A stretch of DNA of 25,152 bases. Origin: a virus. The stretch lies in IMG/VR virus record IMGVR_UViG_3300044961_000069, positions 1-25,152 of that record; one strand, written 5' to 3'. The notes beneath the pieces were generated by a model, which ran no database searches, was not told the origin of the DNA, and worked only from the letters and a program-made list of their open reading frames with translations. This document shows positions 7,927 through 20,996 of this stretch, piece by piece. The stretch's first letter is position 1, and each line of letters opens with the position of its first letter. Made by a program: the position numbers and the translations under genes.

Positions 7927-10011
7927 TTACACGCCGGTGCTGCGCCAGCCAGCGCGCCAGTCGATCGCGGCGACGCCGTAGTCCAGCCGCACCTTCATGT
8001 TGAGGGCGTCGGTCATGAACTCGATCTCGTCGTCGATGAACGGCTCCTGGACGCCGTCGAGGAAGGCGACCTCGAAGGCCTCCGCATCCATCGGATCGGC
8101 GAACAGATACCAGGGCGCGGCGGCGAGGTAGGGCGATGCCACGACCTCGAGGTTGAGCTGCGCCTGGACGTAGTTCCGCTTTGCCGAGTTGGTCTGGGAG
8201 ACGTCCGTCAGGGAGTTGAGCACCTCCCATGCGGTCTGCTTGCGATCGACCGAGCAGACGAGGAAGCGCGGCTGGATGGCCAGGTAGTCGTTCAGGCCCT
8301 TGTCGCGCTGCTTCATCATCGCCGCCTCGCCGATGGCGATGTTGGCGACAGTGATCACGCCGCTGCCGAGGTTGGCGTGTCCGCCGGCAGTGGTGACCAC
8401 CGTGTTGTTGAAGAACGCGCCGGTGTCCGACATGGTCGGGCCTGCGCCGCTATTGCTGGCGAGCAGCGTGTACACGTCCGCCTCGACGGTGCGGGCAGCA
8501 GCGCGGCCAAGGCGGGCCGCCATGCCGGTGAACGCGGCGAGGTCGTCGTTGACGATCATCTCACGGGAGAGCGAGATGTAGCGGCCCTTGGTGGCCGCCT
8601 GGATCGGCTCGCGCTCCTCGCTGATCGTGCCCTGCTGGTACTCGCCGGCCTCCGGCTTGGTCACTAGGCTCGAGAAGCTGCCGATGGTGTGGCGGCTCGC
8701 GATCTTGAAGTCGGACACGGAGCCGACCTTGCACCACCGGTTCCAGGTCACCGGTGCCAGCTGGTAGGCATTGCGCAGCACCTTCCCGGCCGCGTTGGAC
8801 AGCAGCAGCGGGAAGTCCGACGAGGTGTGCGAGGCCAGCACCTTGCGCGCGATGCCATCCTTGGTCAGGCCGCGCGTGCTCACGCCCTTCATGCTGAGCG
8901 CCGTCTCGGCCAGGTCGGCCAGCGAGCGGCCGTAGAACTCGTTGCCGGCCTCGCGCTTTTCGAGACCCGCGCGCACGAGGATCGCCTGCGCAGCGCCAGC
9001 CAGGAACTTGTCCCGGCCATCCACCACGTTGCGCGTGTCGATCGGGATCGTGGGCTCGACGCCCTCGCCCAGCTTGGCGAGCAGCTTGGCGCCGGCGGCA
9101 TCGGCCGAGCAGCTGACGTCGTCGAGGCATGCGTCGAGCAGCTCGCGATGCGACTCGGCGAACTTGCCGAACCGGTCGCGCACCGCCCGGCGGCGCTCGG
9201 CCTCGGCCGTCACGGCCGCCTCCGCCGCGTCGCGACGGGCCTTCTCAATGTCGGCGTTCTGCACCGACGCGGTTGCCTGGTCAGGCATGGTGTTGTCCTC
9301 CTCGGACTTGCTTTCGGCGTCGTTCGCCGACTTGTGGGCCGCCGCGGAACGCGGCGGGGGAACGGAAACTCGGGACTGCGCGAAGGCGCGGAACTGGGCA
9401 CTGGCGGCCATCTTGAGGGCGGCCCATGCGGCCGAGGCCTCTGAGGTGCCCTCATCCTTTTCGGCAGCCGCCGCAGCATCGGCGCGGCGGTCTGCCAGGC
9501 CCGCCTCGATCGCCTCGTCGCGGGTGAACCAGGTCTCGCCCTGCATCCACTCCTCGACCGTGGCCCTGGCTTGGCCGGTCCTGGCGACATAGGCATCGAC
9601 GAGGCCAACCTCGGTCTTGTCCAGCATCTCCGCGACGCTTCGCATGTCGTCGGAGTCGCCGATCGCGATCGTCCACGGGCTGTGCACCATGAACATCGCG
9701 CCGGTGCCCACGACGATCTCGTCGCCGGCCATGGCGATCACCGAGGCGATACTGGCCGCCAGGCCGTCCACATGCACGACGACGCGGGCCTTGTGCTCCT
9801 TGAGCGCCGTGTAGATCGCGAACCCGTCGAACACCTCGCCGCCGGGCGAGTTGATCCGGACCACGATCTCGGACACGTCGCCGAGCCCGGCGAGGTCGTC
9901 CCGGAAGCGCTTGGCGGTCAGGCCGTCGCCGAACCAGTTCTCGCCGATTGGGTCGTAGATCAGGACCTCGGCCTTGTTGCGGGCGAGAGCCCGGACCTTG
10001 ATGGAAGGCAT
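7927..10011 (-). CDS. ClpP-like prohead protease / scaffold / major capsid fusion protein
   Basis: This 694-residue protein joins two virion functions. Residues 1-175 are a ClpP/S14-type protease: INSPGGEVFDGFAIY, Ser87 in GLAASIAS, His110 in MFMVH, and GETWFTRDEAIEAGLAD, where the usual third residue appears as Glu158. A low-complexity linker (about 195-241) follows, then a charged, coiled-coil scaffold-like segment (about 242-310), then a major capsid domain (about 320-694) with long helices and the end MKVRLDYGVAAIDWRAGWRS. The fusion type is known in phages. The protease would cleave scaffold during maturation. An internal ATG at 9288 with a strong Shine-Dalgarno may also yield the capsid part alone. 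The gene follows the portal gene by three bases. Confidence 0.88.
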   Translation of the reverse strand: MPSIKVRALARNKAEVLIYDPIGENWFGDGLTAKRFRDDLAGLGDVSEIVVRINSPGGEVFDGFAIYTALKEHKARVVVHVDGLAASIASVIAMAGDEIVVGTGAMFMVHSPWTIAIGDSDDMRSVAEMLDKTEVGLVDAYVARTGQARATVEEWMQGETWFTRDEAIEAGLADRRADAAAAAEKDEGTSEASAAWAALKMAASAQFRAFAQSRVSVPPPRSAAAHKSANDAESKSEEDNTMPDQATASVQNADIEKARRDAAEAAVTAEAERRRAVRDRFGKFAESHRELLDACLDDVSCSADAAGAKLLAKLGEGVEPTIPIDTRNVVDGRDKFLAGAAQAILVRAGLEKREAGNEFYGRSLADLAETALSMKGVSTRGLTKDGIARKVLASHTSSDFPLLLSNAAGKVLRNAYQLAPVTWNRWCKVGSVSDFKIASRHTIGSFSSLVTKPEAGEYQQGTISEEREPIQAATKGRYISLSREMIVNDDLAAFTGMAARLGRAAARTVEADVYTLLASNSGAGPTMSDTGAFFNNTVVTTAGGHANLGSGVITVANIAIGEAAMMKQRDKGLNDYLAIQPRFLVCSVDRKQTAWEVLNSLTDVSQTNSAKRNYVQAQLNLEVVASPYLAAAPWYLFADPMDAEAFEVAFLDGVQEPFIDDEIEFMTDALNMKVRLDYGVAAIDWRAGWRSTGV
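9286..9303 (-). promoter_or_regulatory. Internal ribosome binding site for scaffold-capsid product
   Basis: Inside the protease-capsid gene the minus strand reads GAGGAGG (9303-9297), eight bases, then an in-frame ATG at 9288. This matches the anti-Shine-Dalgarno perfectly at ideal spacing. Starting here gives a 453-residue product from Met242, exactly where the low-complexity linker ends. The arrangement resembles lambda C/Nu3, where scaffold is started inside the protease gene. Confidence 0.65.
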
Positions 10012-16112: not shown

Positions 16113-19100
16113 TCATTGCACCCTGTAGAGGCGCTCTTCAGGCGCCACGATGAATAGACGGCCTTCTGCGGATACCACCAAGAGGTCCGCGCCTGCGACC
16201 TCACCCGGCCGGATCAGGCTGATGAGCGAGGCAATCTGTGCGTGCACCGAGTCGCTCACAATGACAGTCGCGGCCTGCGTCAGGTCCACGATGCCAGCGA
16301 GATGTAGGTGCGCAGAAGACGCCACGGCCAGGGCGGCGCCTGCGCTCAGCTGCGGGCCATCGCTGGCCAGCGCATGGATAGCATCCGCGACCTGGATCAC
16401 GAACTCCGGCGTCAGCGCGACCTGTGCCGAGGCCATGACGTGGGCGGCGCTTCCAACCTCGAGGTAGTGTGCCTGGACCATGCTTGCCGCATCCGCCGCC
16501 TGCTCGTGGGCCGAGTCGCCCACTTGGACGAACTCCCCGATGGACAGGATTGGCTGCGTGGCGGCGTGGCCATGCGCGGCACTGAGCGCTGCGAGGACTT
16601 GGCGCTGCGTAAGGTTGACGCCCTCAGCAAAATGGCCGTGGAACGACGTCTGAACAGCAACGGATATCGCCTGCGTCAGGATCACGCCGGCGGAAACCTG
16701 CGTGTGAATCGAGCTGGCCACCTCGAGCAGAGATGCCTGCAGCAGTTCCAGACCAGAAACGAACTGCGCATGTACCGAGTCTTCTACGGTCAGTGGCGTC
16801 GCCTGAGACAGCGCGACGCCGTCGGCGGCCTGTGTGTGGGCTGAGCCCGCCACCTGTGCAATCGCTGCCTGCGTCAGTGAGGCCTCGTCGGTGGCCTGCT
16901 GGTGCGCCGAGCTTGTCGTGGTCAAGACGTGCGCCTGAGTCAGTTGCACGCCATCAGTCACATGGCTGTGGATAGAGTCAAGAGCCAGGAGCATATTGTC
17001 CTGCGCCAACCCAACACCATCCGACACGTGCTGATGGACTGAAGCAGCGGGAGCGGCAATAGAGGCCTGGGTCAACTCAGCGCCATCGGTGACATGCGCG
17101 TGGATTGAGTCCTGTGGCGAAACAGCCACCACGACGGACAACACCGGCGAGTCCGCCGCGTGCACATGAACAGACTCCTGACTGCCGAGCACAAAGCCCT
17201 GCGACAACACCACCGAATCGGAAACAAGCCCATGCTGCGAGTCAAGCGAGGCGAGCACCTGCGCCTGCGTGAGCGACACCCCATCGGTCGCATGACCATG
17301 AGCCGAGTCGCCTGCAACAAGCTCAATGCTGCCGCTGCCTTCCGGAACCTCAAGCTGCACCCACGTAACGCGGGCTTTTTCAGTGGGCTCGACTGCCCGA
17401 ATGCGAAGAAATGCCGTTGGACCCGAACCTGACGCGCTAATCGTGTAAGACCACGTTGGCGCGACGTTCGGCGTACCCGTCACGCTGTTTACGGGTGCGG
17501 TGTATATGATGTGCCTATGGTCGTTTCCACTGGTGACCGCGGTGCTCGATCTTGACGATAACGTGCCGAACGTCACATCCGTCGCTGTCAAGCTGACAGA
17601 AGATAGTGTGCCGGTATCAATGTTCTGCGCGGTAGCGACCAGCATGAGGTCGCCTGCGCTGAAAGTCAGGTTACTTGACGACGTGGCGCTGTAACTCGTG
17701 TCATTCGTGGTGTCCGCGCCAGTTCCAATAGACTCCGTAATGACGAGCCCCGACGGCGGCTGCACGCGAACAATCGAGGCCCGCATCGTGTTATTGGTTG
17801 AACCGGACAACGTGACCGTGATCGTGCCTGACTCGCTGCCCGTCACCGTGTCCTTGCGGAAGATGGCAACGCGCCGGGTGCCAGTATCAGCTCCCCACGT
17901 CCCAGTGCCGCCCTCAAGGGAACCGATCAGCGTCCAATCACTAGGAGCGGCGAACTCTGTGTTAGCCGTATTCGATCGCCCTGTGACGACGAGATACAGA
18001 GCGCTTTCTGACGTAATGCCACTTGGATATGACGGCGTGCAAGAAGTCGTGCCGTTCGCGCCTGTGCCGATCGCGCCATATTCGACAGCGACAGAACCCG
18101 GGTTGTCTGCTGCGGCCGTCTCGAACTCGACACGCAGACCGGCGTAGCTGCTAATGGACTCCGTAACCGTGCGCTCGTACAGCGTCAATGCGCCGAGCGG
18201 ATCTGTCGTCCACGACTGAATGGTGGCGTTGGAGCTATCCAGCAGCCGTGCTATCAGCTTCCTTAGCTGGGACCCACCTGCCGCGTAGCGCAGCGTCCTC
18301 GGGCCAGATTCGGGCGTACTGAGCGCCGCGAGGCCCAGTCGCATCGTGCTGTTGCTGTCAACACTGGCATAGTCAGCATCGTCACGAGTTGCTTCGTCGA
18401 GCACACCATACAGTGTGGAGCCCGTTGAAGGCGTCCAGCTCCCAGCACTTATGTCCGAAGTCGGTGCGGCTGTTTGAGGCGTGCCGCTAGTAGTGCCCTT
18501 GATCTCGATGCCGACGAGTGCCCAACGCTGCCCGCCGGGAGCCGATAGGCCGATGGTTTTCGAGCCTGCTGCACCCGCGTTCGCGTGATAGCCTGCATAG
18601 TTCGTGTAGTACGAGGAATCGTGAAAGTACAATTCCTCCGTGAATGTGCCCGCGTCGCTCGTGCGATAGGTGCGCGATGCACCGTCAAGCGCGTTCCAGT
18701 CAGTACTGACGTAGGTAATTGCACTGTTGGCTTGCGTCGTACTGGCCGTGGCACTCGGCGCACTGTTATCGCCGGAGGCACCGAACACCGTGCCGAAGCC
18801 ATCGGAGTCGCGCCACACCTCGACGCGGAACCCGTACCAGCCGCTAAAGTTGCTGCCAAGATCGACGCCAAAACTGGTTCCGCCAGACACCGACGTGATG
18901 GTAGCGGTCCAGAGTTGTGCGCGAGGGTCTAGAGCACCCGGTGTTCCGGTCGGCTGCGTGGCCTCTAGCGTGAAGGCCGAGGCCGTGGCGAGGCCCGTCG
19001 CAGTCGGAGTCGAAAAGGTCGTGCCGGCATTCTCAGCAACCGCCTTGACGACGATCAGGTCGCCGACCTGAACCGTCAGGCCGGAGACCGATTTGCTTGT

Positions 19101-19547
19101 GGCCGCGCTGTTGTAGCTAGATGCCGCCGTTGCTACAAAAGTCGGTGCTGCCATGTCAGGCGGCCCTGTCGGCGGCGTTGCCGCTGCCTTCCACGTGATG
19201 ACGAGATTGGTCACCTCGCCCGGTAGCAGCAGCGAGAATGTCTTGCTCCCCTCGTTCGAGCGGGCACTCTCGCCGTCCACGTTGACGGCTGTTACCTGCC
19301 AGTAGCACGTCGTCCCGTCCGGCAGGCCCGAGCGCACGGCGGAGGTAGCCGTGGGCGGCAGCGAGATCGGCGAGCCGTAGCCCGCCGTCCCGCAACGCTC
19401 GTACAGCCTGTACTCGGTGAGCGCCTTCGCCCCCGTGAGCGGTGAGCCGTCCGTCGCCTGCGTCGGAGCGGTCCACGAAATTGTCGCCGTGCCCGCAAAC
19501 GCGGGGAGCGAACTCAGGCACAGGAGGACGGCAGTGAGCCACTTCAC
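16113..19547 (-). CDS. Large secreted-type fibre protein: FN3, beta-sandwich domains, 17 His repeats
   Basis: This 1144-residue protein is the largest in the window. The frame is open to 19820, but the GTG at 19547 overlaps the previous stop (GTGA) and yields a clear signal peptide (VKWLTAVLLCLSSLPAFA, cut before Gly19). In order: an FN3 domain (about 19-105), a beta-sandwich (about 135-350), a jelly-roll-like part (about 365-480), two similar Ser/Thr/Gly-rich beta domains (about 485-720), 17 tandem 22-residue repeats (743-1116), and a hydrophobic tail (LLVVSAEGRLFIVAPEERLY). Domain type and size suggest a tail fibre or receptor-binding protein, but the signal peptide is odd for a virion protein. 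Two sampled 60-base lines (17521, 18001) have 57% GC, against 73% in a terminase line. Confidence 0.8.
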   Translation of the reverse strand: MKWLTAVLLCLSSLPAFAGTATISWTAPTQATDGSPLTGAKALTEYRLYERCGTAGYGSPISLPPTATSAVRSGLPDGTTCYWQVTAVNVDGESARSNEGSKTFSLLLPGEVTNLVITWKAAATPPTGPPDMAAPTFVATAASSYNSAATSKSVSGLTVQVGDLIVVKAVAENAGTTFSTPTATGLATASAFTLEATQPTGTPGALDPRAQLWTATITSVSGGTSFGVDLGSNFSGWYGFRVEVWRDSDGFGTVFGASGDNSAPSATASTTQANSAITYVSTDWNALDGASRTYRTSDAGTFTEELYFHDSSYYTNYAGYHANAGAAGSKTIGLSAPGGQRWALVGIEIKGTTSGTPQTAAPTSDISAGSWTPSTGSTLYGVLDEATRDDADYASVDSNSTMRLGLAALSTPESGPRTLRYAAGGSQLRKLIARLLDSSNATIQSWTTDPLGALTLYERTVTESISSYAGLRVEFETAAADNPGSVAVEYGAIGTGANGTTSCTPSYPSGITSESALYLVVTGRSNTANTEFAAPSDWTLIGSLEGGTGTWGADTGTRRVAIFRKDTVTGSESGTITVTLSGSTNNTMRASIVRVQPPSGLVITESIGTGADTTNDTSYSATSSSNLTFSAGDLMLVATAQNIDTGTLSSVSLTATDVTFGTLSSRSSTAVTSGNDHRHIIYTAPVNSVTGTPNVAPTWSYTISASGSGPTAFLRIRAVEPTEKARVTWVQLEVPEGSGSIELVAGDSAHGHATDGVSLTQAQVLASLDSQHGLVSDSVVLSQGFVLGSQESVHVHAADSPVLSVVVAVSPQDSIHAHVTDGAELTQASIAAPAASVHQHVSDGVGLAQDNMLLALDSIHSHVTDGVQLTQAHVLTTTSSAHQQATDEASLTQAAIAQVAGSAHTQAADGVALSQATPLTVEDSVHAQFVSGLELLQASLLEVASSIHTQVSAGVILTQAISVAVQTSFHGHFAEGVNLTQRQVLAALSAAHGHAATQPILSIGEFVQVGDSAHEQAADAASMVQAHYLEVGSAAHVMASAQVALTPEFVIQVADAIHALASDGPQLSAGAALAVASSAHLHLAGIVDLTQAATVIVSDSVHAQIASLISLIRPGEVAGADLLVVSAEGRLFIVAPEERLYRVQ
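16200..17321 (-). repeat. 17 tandem 66-bp units coding a 22-residue His repeat
   Basis: The units code, in consensus, L-x-V-x-D-S-x-H-x-H-x-x-D-G-V-x-L-T-Q-A-x-x. All 17 are exactly 22 residues with no insertion, and His at position 8 is present in every one. Position 10 is His in eight, Gln in six and Leu or Met in three. DNA of the units has diverged strongly, so the periodicity is kept by selection on protein rather than by recent duplication. Such HxH repeats resemble metal-binding shafts of trimeric tail fibres. Confidence 0.9.
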
Positions 19548-19957
19548 GGAGCCGGCACAGTCTGCACGGTGACCGCACATGACGGCAGGCCGCTCGGGTG
19601 CTGCTGACAAGTCAGCGTGATCGTGAAGTTGCTCGGTGCGCCGGGCACGTCGGGCAGATCGGTCACGTTGACCACTGCGATGTTTGAGGACGGCCCCTCC
19701 CCCGCGCTGTTCACGCCATGCACGCAGAAGGAATACTCGCCCTGCGCCGTCAGCAGTCCGGTGAACGTCTGACCGCTGGTCACGGTGCCGACGAGTGCCT
19801 TGGTCTCGCCCGCACGACATCCACGGTACAGCCGGTGGCTGGTGGCATTCGGCGCGGCGGTGAACGTCGCCGTGATGTCATACGGCGGAGCCGACATCGC
19901 TGAGAACGAGCACGCGGCGCCAATCAGCGCACTGGCGACAAGGGCAATGAGCCGCAT
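19544..19957 (-). CDS. Small FN3-like protein with signal peptide
   Basis: The 137-residue product begins MRLIALVASALIGAACSFSA, a Sec signal peptide with a likely cut near AMSA-PP. A Cys at position 16 sits in GAAC, which is not a good lipobox. The mature part is one FN3-like beta domain (YDITATFTAAPNATSHRLYR, TFTGLLTAQGEYSFCVHGVN, then SNIAVVNVTDLPDVPGAPSN) with a C-terminal Cys pair. The start at 19957 has a strong Shine-Dalgarno (AGGAGT, seven bases). It is the first clear gene of the late operon and is coupled (GTGA) to the large fibre-like gene, whose first domain is also FN3. An exported accessory or a phage surface part are both possible. Confidence 0.75.
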   Translation of the reverse strand: MRLIALVASALIGAACSFSAMSAPPYDITATFTAAPNATSHRLYRGCRAGETKALVGTVTSGQTFTGLLTAQGEYSFCVHGVNSAGEGPSSNIAVVNVTDLPDVPGAPSNFTITLTCQQHPSGLPSCAVTVQTVPAP

Positions 19958-20096: not shown

Positions 20097-20133
20097 GTAT
20101 CTCTTTGCCAGCCGGTGAGCCTCGAAGAAGAAA

Positions 20134-20152
20134 GCCCGGCTCGAGGCCGGGC
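20134..20152 (-). terminator. Terminator-like hairpin 2 of late leader
   Basis: On the minus strand GCCCGGC, loop CTCGA, GCCGGGC is followed by TTTCTTCTTC. The seven-base GC stem plus a broken T tract fits a moderate intrinsic terminator. Confidence 0.55.
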
Positions 20153-20261
20153 GAGGGACGCCGCGCATGTCGGACGCGCCGTCAGGGAAATAGAAGGCGC
20201 CACACCGGCCAGCGGGGCAGGGAGGGGTTTGTGCGTGTGCCGGGGGCGCCGGAAACGAACA

Positions 20262-20283
20262 AGCCCCGCTCGAGGACGGGGCT
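20262..20283 (-). terminator. Terminator-like hairpin 1 of late leader
   Basis: On the minus strand AGCCCCG, an eight-base loop containing CTCGAG, then CGGGGCT is followed by TGTTCGTTT. It lies about 30-50 bases past the expected late start point, the place of tR' in lambda. Confidence 0.55.
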
Positions 20284-20321
20284 TTCGGGTGACACTGAGT
20301 CGACGCTACAGCATCTCGCGC

Positions 20322-20351
20322 AGTGTTGGCGTCTAGACGACCGGATGTCAA
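20322..20351 (-). promoter_or_regulatory. Candidate late promoter (pR'-like)
   Basis: Minus strand TTGACA at 20351-20346 is a perfect -35 box. With an 18-base spacer the -10 is AACACT (20327-20322), a weak match keeping A2, A4 and T6. The 10-base palindrome lies wholly in the spacer, as the Q binding element does in lambda pR'. A weak -10 fits a promoter needing a partner protein. Confidence 0.45.
20330..20339. promoter_or_regulatory. Palindrome CGTCTAGACG, promoter-proximal copy
   Basis: A perfect 10-base palindrome lying between the -35 and -10 candidates of the late promoter. With its flank it forms GGCGTCTAGACG, the inverse of the flank at the distal copy. It is a likely protein-binding site. 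Confidence 0.55.
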
Positions 20352-20383
20352 GCGCCAGGCGTCGCGTTTTACCGAGCGAGAAC

Positions 20384-20393
20384 CGTCTAGACG
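20384..20393. promoter_or_regulatory. Palindrome CGTCTAGACG, distal copy over the Q-like stop codon
   Basis: The second identical palindrome, 54 bases from the first. The TAG stop codon of the Q-like gene (20389-20387) is inside it. Spacing is close to five helical turns. Confidence 0.55.
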
Positions 20394-20800
20394 CCTTTCC
20401 TCCATTCAGCCTGATCCTGCGCAGCCACGAAGCCAGCGATGCGAGAGTGGGCGATGTCGAGCAGGGTCCAGTATCTGGCCTTGCTCACGCCGGTGAAGGC
20501 CGCCTTCTCGGCCACCGTGCCCCTGGCGATGTAGTGCATGTGCAGCACCAGGCTCGGGCGAAAGGGCATGCCGTGGATCGCACGCTGCACGAGCAACGCT
20601 TCGCCGGACAGGACCTCGGCGTAGTGGAGCACCCGCTTGTTTTGGGCTGCCCCATCCACCTCCTCCCGCACCTTTCCGGCGATGCTCACGGCGGGCCAGC
20701 CAGCGGGATCGCCGGCTCTGTTCTCTCCCTGCCATATCAGGCGCTTCTGGTACGCCCATATGCGGCACATGCCGGACACCCACCCGAAGTCCTCAGCCAT
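20387..20800 (-). CDS. Putative late transcription regulator (Q / RinA-ArpU-like)
   Basis: The 137-residue protein has an N-terminal part with basic and aromatic residues (MCRIWAYQKRLIWQG), and a C-terminal HTH-like region: ALLVQRAIHGMPFRPSLVLH, then ARGTVAEKAAFTGVSKARYW. This is the pattern of phage late regulators, where a conserved L-x-x-H-Y helix precedes an HTH. It is the last gene of the early operon, just upstream of a promoter, two terminators and the late genes, as Q is in lambda. The ATG at 20800 has a strong Shine-Dalgarno (GGAGGG, about five bases) and overlaps the previous gene by eight bases. The upstream open frame to 20893 is not needed. The assignment rests mainly on position and HTH. 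Confidence 0.55.
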   Translation of the reverse strand: MAEDFGWVSGMCRIWAYQKRLIWQGENRAGDPAGWPAVSIAGKVREEVDGAAQNKRVLHYAEVLSGEALLVQRAIHGMPFRPSLVLHMHYIARGTVAEKAAFTGVSKARYWTLLDIAHSRIAGFVAAQDQAEWRKGV

Positions 20801-20996
20801 TGCGCCCTCCACTCGTGATCCGCCACCGCCCATCCTCGCCCACCTCGACGAAGCCACGGTTCTTCCAGTCGCAGACGACCTTCCCCACCGCATCCGGCAG
20901 CACTCGCGGCCACTGCAGCCGCACCCAGCGGATCAGGTCACCGATCGCCGCCGGGGCCTCCGCCAGGCGCCACAGGAGCACGTCAGGGAGCCGCAC
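20793..20996 (-). CDS. Small winged-helix-like protein
   Basis: A 67-residue protein that looks like one compact winged helix: LPDVLLWRLAEAPAAIGDLI, a recognition helix candidate around RVLPDAVGKVVCDWKNRGFV, and a wing EVGEDGRWRITSGG. It resembles small phage regulators but I cannot name it. Start is GTG at 20996, overlapping the nuclease gene by 14 bases. A GTG at 20981 would remove that overlap and drop five residues. It sits between the nuclease and Q-like genes. Confidence 0.6.
   Translation of the reverse strand: MRLPDVLLWRLAEAPAAIGDLIRWVRLQWPRVLPDAVGKVVCDWKNRGFVEVGEDGRWRITSGGRNG

Follow-up and report, generated by a model that had tools for sequence, protein, structure and literature searches.

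Q proteins are highly diverse in sequence, and each of them recognizes its own promoter element; those of the phage 21 Q type antiterminate by means of a ring in the RNA exit channel. In phage 21 Q (21Q), as presented in excerpts of the structural account, the binding element is embedded within the promoter and comprises two 6-bp direct-repeat subsites (TGAGCA), on which the protomers barely touch each other (PMC6606751). For GafZ of the Caulobacter gene transfer agent, the excerpted report describes a near-perfect palindrome between -10 and -35 that is required for GafZ binding, a terminator region downstream, and a separate activator, GafY, bound upstream (PMC11150451). AlpA of Pseudomonas aeruginosa, according to excerpts of two reports, acts as one molecule per complex on a single non-palindromic GGGACG element in the spacer, starting from -25, with one terminator at +54, or two (PMC9371919, PMC7969949); at its PA0807 promoter, terminators are predicted at +26 and +247 (PMC7969949). 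The Q proteins of lambda and P22 are 207-aa members of family PF03589, and in the annotation of the P22 record late transcription starts at 37887 and terminator tR' spans 37917-37945, i.e. +31 to +59.

We compared with these systems a locus in the virus record IMGVR_UViG_3300044961_000069, of which a stretch of 25,152 bases (the window) was analysed; its late genes lie on the minus strand. Elsewhere in the window, a large fibre-like protein (16113-19820, minus strand) contains an extended array of repeats, each about 22 residues in length and of the form DSxHxHxxDGVxLTQ, and a 694-aa ORF (7927-10011, minus strand) resembles, by eye, a fusion of a ClpP-type protease with a major capsid protein. 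The coordinates of the locus itself are collected in Table 1, which also refers to a relative, IMGVR_UViG_3300037458_000305 (G002).

The arrangement resembles that of phage 21 Q at 21PR': the two share the placement of gene, promoter and terminator, with the gene beside a (here weak) promoter that is followed by terminators ahead of the late genes, and a binding element (here a proposed one) embedded within the promoter, and the proteins show a distant sequence relation via intermediates. In contrast to 21Q, the direct-repeat subsites are absent, and the site in the window is a perfect 10-bp palindrome accompanied by a full second copy 54 bp away. The likeness to GafZ is one of promoter layout, not of sequence, i.e. 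a palindrome between -10 and -35 and then a terminator; since the GafZ element is itself described as a near-perfect palindrome, there is precedent for a spacer palindrome. With AlpA, as excerpted, the locus shares an element in the spacer and terminators downstream, comparable to those of the window at about +32 and +164. With lambda and P22 it shares the late gene order, and the P22 promoter-to-terminator distances are nearly equal to its own, but its protein has no match to PF03589. An element between -35 and -10, which the earlier note had likened to that of lambda, thus agrees with the published excerpts on lambdoid Q, AlpA and GafZ. The identical second palindrome 54 bp upstream has no counterpart in the excerpted accounts of Q, AlpA and GafZ (PMC11150451, PMC9371919, PMC6606751, PMC7969949), that of GafZ included, and a search of the open-licence PubMed Central literature returned no paper describing a Q-type promoter with twin full palindromes. 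Phages of this type normally have one loading site or paired short half-sites, while here there are two identical mirror-image sites.

Table 1. Features of the late-regulator locus (window coordinates; positions with sign are relative to the inferred start)
Feature	Coordinates	Strand	Remarks
67-aa ORF, conserved	20793..20996	-	directly upstream of P0001; edge of cassette
P0001, 137-aa putative late regulator gene, distant Q21-type antiterminator homologue	20387..20800	-	ATG overlaps stop of preceding small ORF
Upstream palindrome CGTCTAGACG	20384..20393	.	about -78..-69; holds TAG stop of 137-aa gene
-35 element TTGACA	20346..20351	-	perfect consensus
Downstream palindrome CGTCTAGACG	20330..20339	.	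-35/-10 spacer, about -24..-15; proposed loading site
-10 element AACACT	20322..20327	-	weak, 3/6; A2 and T6 retained
Exchange cassette: regulator gene, promoter and both palindromes	20298..20800	-	replaced as block in G002
Non-coding late leader	20123..20297	-	about 77-80% identical in G002; contains hairpins and cos-like element near 20242
Terminator-like hairpin 1, AAGCCCCG(T)..(G)CGGGGCTT	20261..20284	-	about +32..+55; pairing kept in G002
Terminator-like hairpin 2, GCCCGGC..GCCGGGC + TTTCTTCTT	20134..20152	-	about +164..+182; stem re-formed in G002

Relationship of the 137-aa protein to Q antiterminators

Direct comparison of P0001 with family models was largely uninformative. Among Pfam families there was no match up to E 10, and for want of one we discarded the idea of a Mor-, C- or MerR-type activator; among PHROGs no Q model was matched and only phrog_21918 appeared, at E 0.24. 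Neither the PF06530/phrog_79 models (phage 21 Q type) nor the lambda-type PF03589 matched P0001, while in the controls PF03589 found lambda and P22 Q at 6e-58 and 5.5e-57, and an E. coli phage Q of the PF06530/phrog_79 type (L107) scored 139 bits. Searches of PDB and NCBIfam gave nothing usable; in the latter, the PA0613 family (NF051483) aligned with residues 81-125 only, at 17.2 bits and E 0.0046 against a cut-off of 100 bits. PA0613 lies in the pyocin cluster and might, on this weak lead, encode a Q-like protein that controls the late pyocin genes. A tblastn search of phage and plasmid sequences with P0001 (E up to 10) gave weak matches only, none with a meaningful E-value, the plasmid matches including five places annotated as sigma-70 family (E 6-9), and a single-sequence AlphaFold2 model, with a pLDDT of 42, was too poor for use.

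Homology emerged through intermediates, all of them from phages chosen by their terminase. Among 25 terminase-relative records, a search with P0001 found one syntenic protein, located directly after the VRR-NUC gene in IMGVR_UViG_3300037851_000100 (G005), with 26% identity over residues 30-126 (E 4.6e-4). A profile built from these two rows (A7) matched 5 of 29 records, namely its own two rows plus proteins from G009, G011 and G014 (E 2e-6 to 6e-6). Those of G011 and G014 are in turn recognized by phrog_79, "anti-termination protein Q-like", at 4e-8 and 4e-7, and by PF06530 at 5e-4 and 0.0017, below the cut-off of that family. When A7 was compared by hhalign with an alignment of the G011 and G014 proteins and one E. 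coli phage Q, the probability was 95.1% (E 3e-8), and direct alignment of P0001 with the G010 protein gave E 4e-4. The PHROG Q-like homologues occupy the same genome slot as P0001. A five-row profile (A8) matched 14 of the 29 records, and its best solved structures were those of phage 21 Q (E 0.0027), which is partly by construction, because one row of A8 is a true PF06530 member; A7 alone matched no solved structure. From these comparisons P0001 appears to be related to the Q21 type very distantly, through intermediates, and not to be a family member by model; the earlier note's description of the gene as Q-like is supported to this extent, i.e. by the path from P0001 via G005 to PHROG Q-like proteins in the same slot and not by a direct match to a Q model.

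The promoter and its twin palindromes

Behind the 137-aa gene, the -35 hexamer TTGACA and the -10 hexamer AACACT are separated by an 18-base spacer, TCCGGTCGTCTAGACGCC. The -10 is judged weak because the promoter (20351-20322) is not called by a standard scan requiring at least 4/6 per hexamer, and the earlier note was right on both the perfect -35 and the weak -10. The inferred transcription start would lie near 20315, and GATGCT, at about +1 to +6 of it, has the A2 and T6 that a -10-like pause element would keep. The two palindromes, each a perfect 10-bp copy of CGTCTAGACG, stand either side of TTGACA (20351-20346) at a spacing of 54 bases from start to start. The gene ends AAA GGC GTC TAG on the minus strand, and its stop codon (20389-20387) falls within the upstream copy, just as the earlier note had it.

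The window holds exactly two copies of CGTCTAGACG, and no third copy even with one mismatch allowed. Dinucleotide shuffles of the window contain 0.022 copies on average, and none of 500 contained two. Among random 18-mers from the window, 1.7% include a perfect palindrome of at least 10 bases. One may nevertheless suppose that the twin is a chance repeat at an ordinary late promoter. An identical pair of perfect 10-bp palindromes no more than 100 bases apart occurred somewhere in the whole 25 kb in 22/500 shuffles, i.e. the chance of such a pair is about 4% for the whole window (and far less for one named intergenic region), and the element in homologue loci (see below) is non-palindromic. Against this, the copies fall on the spacer and on the stop codon of the sole gene-promoter-terminator module, they are built on a CTAG core although CTAG is depleted across the whole window (17 observed vs 42.4 expected from shuffles), and no identical palindrome twin occurs in the related phage DNA, i.e. 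in 79 terminase-related loci of 696,347 bases, some of them overlapping or near-duplicate. We therefore regard coincidence as very improbable. In viral_contigs the twin pattern with a gap of 30-60 bases was found in two stretches, a sister contig 99.8% identical to the window and a coding repeat of an unrelated phage; no independent relative with both the 137-aa gene and the palindromes was found, the sister contig being the sole record that has both.

The palindromes could also be sites of another DNA-binding protein, such as a phage repressor or a host regulator, or form, in a read-through early transcript, an RNA stem of 12-13 bp by which the regulator mRNA would be protected or shaped at its 3' end. 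The 12-mers around the two copies are mutually inverted, the 79-nt RNA spanning them folds at -30.2 kcal/mol (z -2.6), and there are no further such sites in the 25 kb. However, identical palindromes are always able to pair as RNA, and the stem is not followed by a T-run. Taken together with the behaviour of the sites in G002 (below), an explanation of this kind seems improbable.

A third alternative makes P0001 a classical dimeric activator, whose binding to both palindromes would stimulate initiation from the weak -10, with the hairpins downstream only ending the early operon or leaking. Two full palindromes suit a dimer, the -10 is indeed weak, a dyad of G005 (see below) lies upstream of its -35 in an activator-like position, and phage Mu Mor is described, in excerpts, as binding inverted repeats centred at -43.5 (PMC4390567). 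Yet one of the palindromes lies in the promoter spacer, a position from which an ordinary activator would block the polymerase, P0001 has no match to an activator family, and its homologues are Q-like antiterminators. We consider this explanation unlikely.

Downstream hairpins and elements of related loci

A terminator scan of the region gave seven terminator-like sites, six of them on the minus strand and several overlapping, compared with 0.6 in shuffles. We also ran a uniform layout scan, in which a promoter had to be followed by a hairpin terminator within about 75 bases. It returned exactly one match on the minus strand of the window, the promoter behind P0001, and one in G002, on the minus strand at the same place, compared with 0.08 and 0.05 matches per genome in shuffles. 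Upstream of the terminase in 27 other loci there was no match; the sample consisted of 28 of the 80 terminase loci, hand-picked for long upstream stretches, and left out some loci with 2.1-2.7 kb upstream (e.g. L047, L062, L074). The leader that carries the hairpins was rejected as a coding stretch, its mismatches with G002 being evenly spread across codon positions (12/9/8). A pattern scan with the conserved leader matched G002, the sister contig and, by chance, two coding stretches, and an Rfam search gave matches only far below gathering scores. The leader also includes an element C(C/T)CGGYACACNC (20242-20228 on the minus strand), which is present in 11/13 records (11 homologues, the window and G002) at 35-147 bases past the stop codon of the gene in the Q slot; it may be a cos site, since a lambda-type terminase lies downstream.

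Promoter-like stretches at the ends of Q-slot genes are found in homologue loci as well. The element survey covered 11 homologue records, the window and G002, with G008 and G021 viewed beside G010. In 9/11 homologue records (9/13 with G008 and G021, where it was not seen) the spacer of the promoter at the Q gene end contains the GCCCCGAAA group element GCCC(C/A)GAAA, carried by G009, G011, G012, G013, G014, G016, G017, G019 and G022. Near-duplicates are counted here as records (G009 equals G011, G013 is close to G022, and G008 to G010), and the 9/11 count becomes 7/9 when they are collapsed; four of the promoters were called by the script, while the rest, below its threshold, were read by eye. 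The element is non-palindromic. It occurs in two codon phases (phase 0 in seven records, phase 1 in G012 and G019) and thus appears to be kept as a DNA element, likely as the Q binding element of that subgroup.

In G005 the P0001 homologue contains, inside its 3' end and upstream of the -35, a dyad AAAGTGTG-TG-CACACTTT (8+8; L106:2778-2795); dyads as strong as this number five in 24.5 kb of G005 DNA. The promoter that follows, CTGACG-18-TACAAA, has the gene stop codon in its -35 and is succeeded by a strong terminator. A GAATAT/ATATTC dyad after the G010 gene was dropped, as it is lost in G021. Within 400 bases past the stop codon, a survey of 10 homologue loci found a clear T-tailed terminator in G005 only, and weak ones in G022 and G019. 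Most homologue loci are thus without a clear terminator, which counts against one uniform scheme.

Block exchange in a relative and a model of the switch

G002 has in common with the window the terminase, the VRR-NUC gene, the small ORF and the late leader, while the regulator gene, the promoter and both palindromes are replaced as a block. The aligned identity is 168/196 (86%) in the flank, 230/503 (46%) in the cassette and 135/175 (77%) in the leader. In the slot of P0001, G002 encodes an unrelated 169-aa protein without any family match (L007:1587-2096), which is a candidate for an unrelated late regulator. CGTCTAGACG has no copy across the 30.9 kb of G002. Its promoter, TTGACG-17-TAGATT, includes the stop codon of the 169-aa gene in the -35; the spacer inverted repeat CGCCG-6-CGGCG counts for little, because 5% of random 17-mers would match. 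Hairpin pairing is preserved between the two genomes by a G-U to G-C change and a re-formed stem.

Regulator and promoter thus moved together while the terminators stayed, which is what would be expected of a regulator that has its target within the promoter and serves to get past the terminators. The joint loss of the sites and the regulator gene points to the product of that gene and argues against a foreign protein or an RNA stem, and the retention of the hairpins between promoter and late genes while the regulator was swapped speaks against a classical activator. The earlier note's late promoter candidate gains support from the two downstream hairpins, from the G002 promoter at the same place and from the gene-end promoters in homologue loci.

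We consider it probable that the locus is a Q-type late-gene switch, with a distant Q21-type antiterminator, a late promoter of its own and the spacer palindrome as the loading site. The 137-aa protein would be made from the early operon and act at the promoter right past its own gene (TTGACA-18-AACACT, with the predicted start near 20315). Without it, RNA polymerase would initiate but halt at the terminators lying some 32 and 164 bases downstream; the protein would load via the palindrome between -35 and -10 and join the polymerase, which would then continue through the terminators to the late genes. Together, the gene, its promoter and the palindromes make up one exchangeable cassette. The upstream palindrome, located where the gene ends, may be an additional binding site, providing more loading, aid to the weak -10, or self-control. 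The dimer, looping or activation proposed in the earlier note may operate through the upstream copy. Only tentatively do we suggest the more specific arrangement in which a dimer occupies both full palindromes, which are separated by 54 bp (about five turns), such that the upstream site would activate the weak promoter and the spacer site would load the antiterminator.

For this group of phages, the comparison suggests that regulator and element change together while the terminators are retained, so that comparison may reveal the code by which a Q helix reads its element, the elements available being GCCCCGAAA in one subgroup, CGTCTAGACG in the window and another dyad in G005. If true, two full palindromes would imply that the protein binds as a dimer, in contrast to the direct-repeat mode of 21Q, and perhaps activation and antitermination by one protein.
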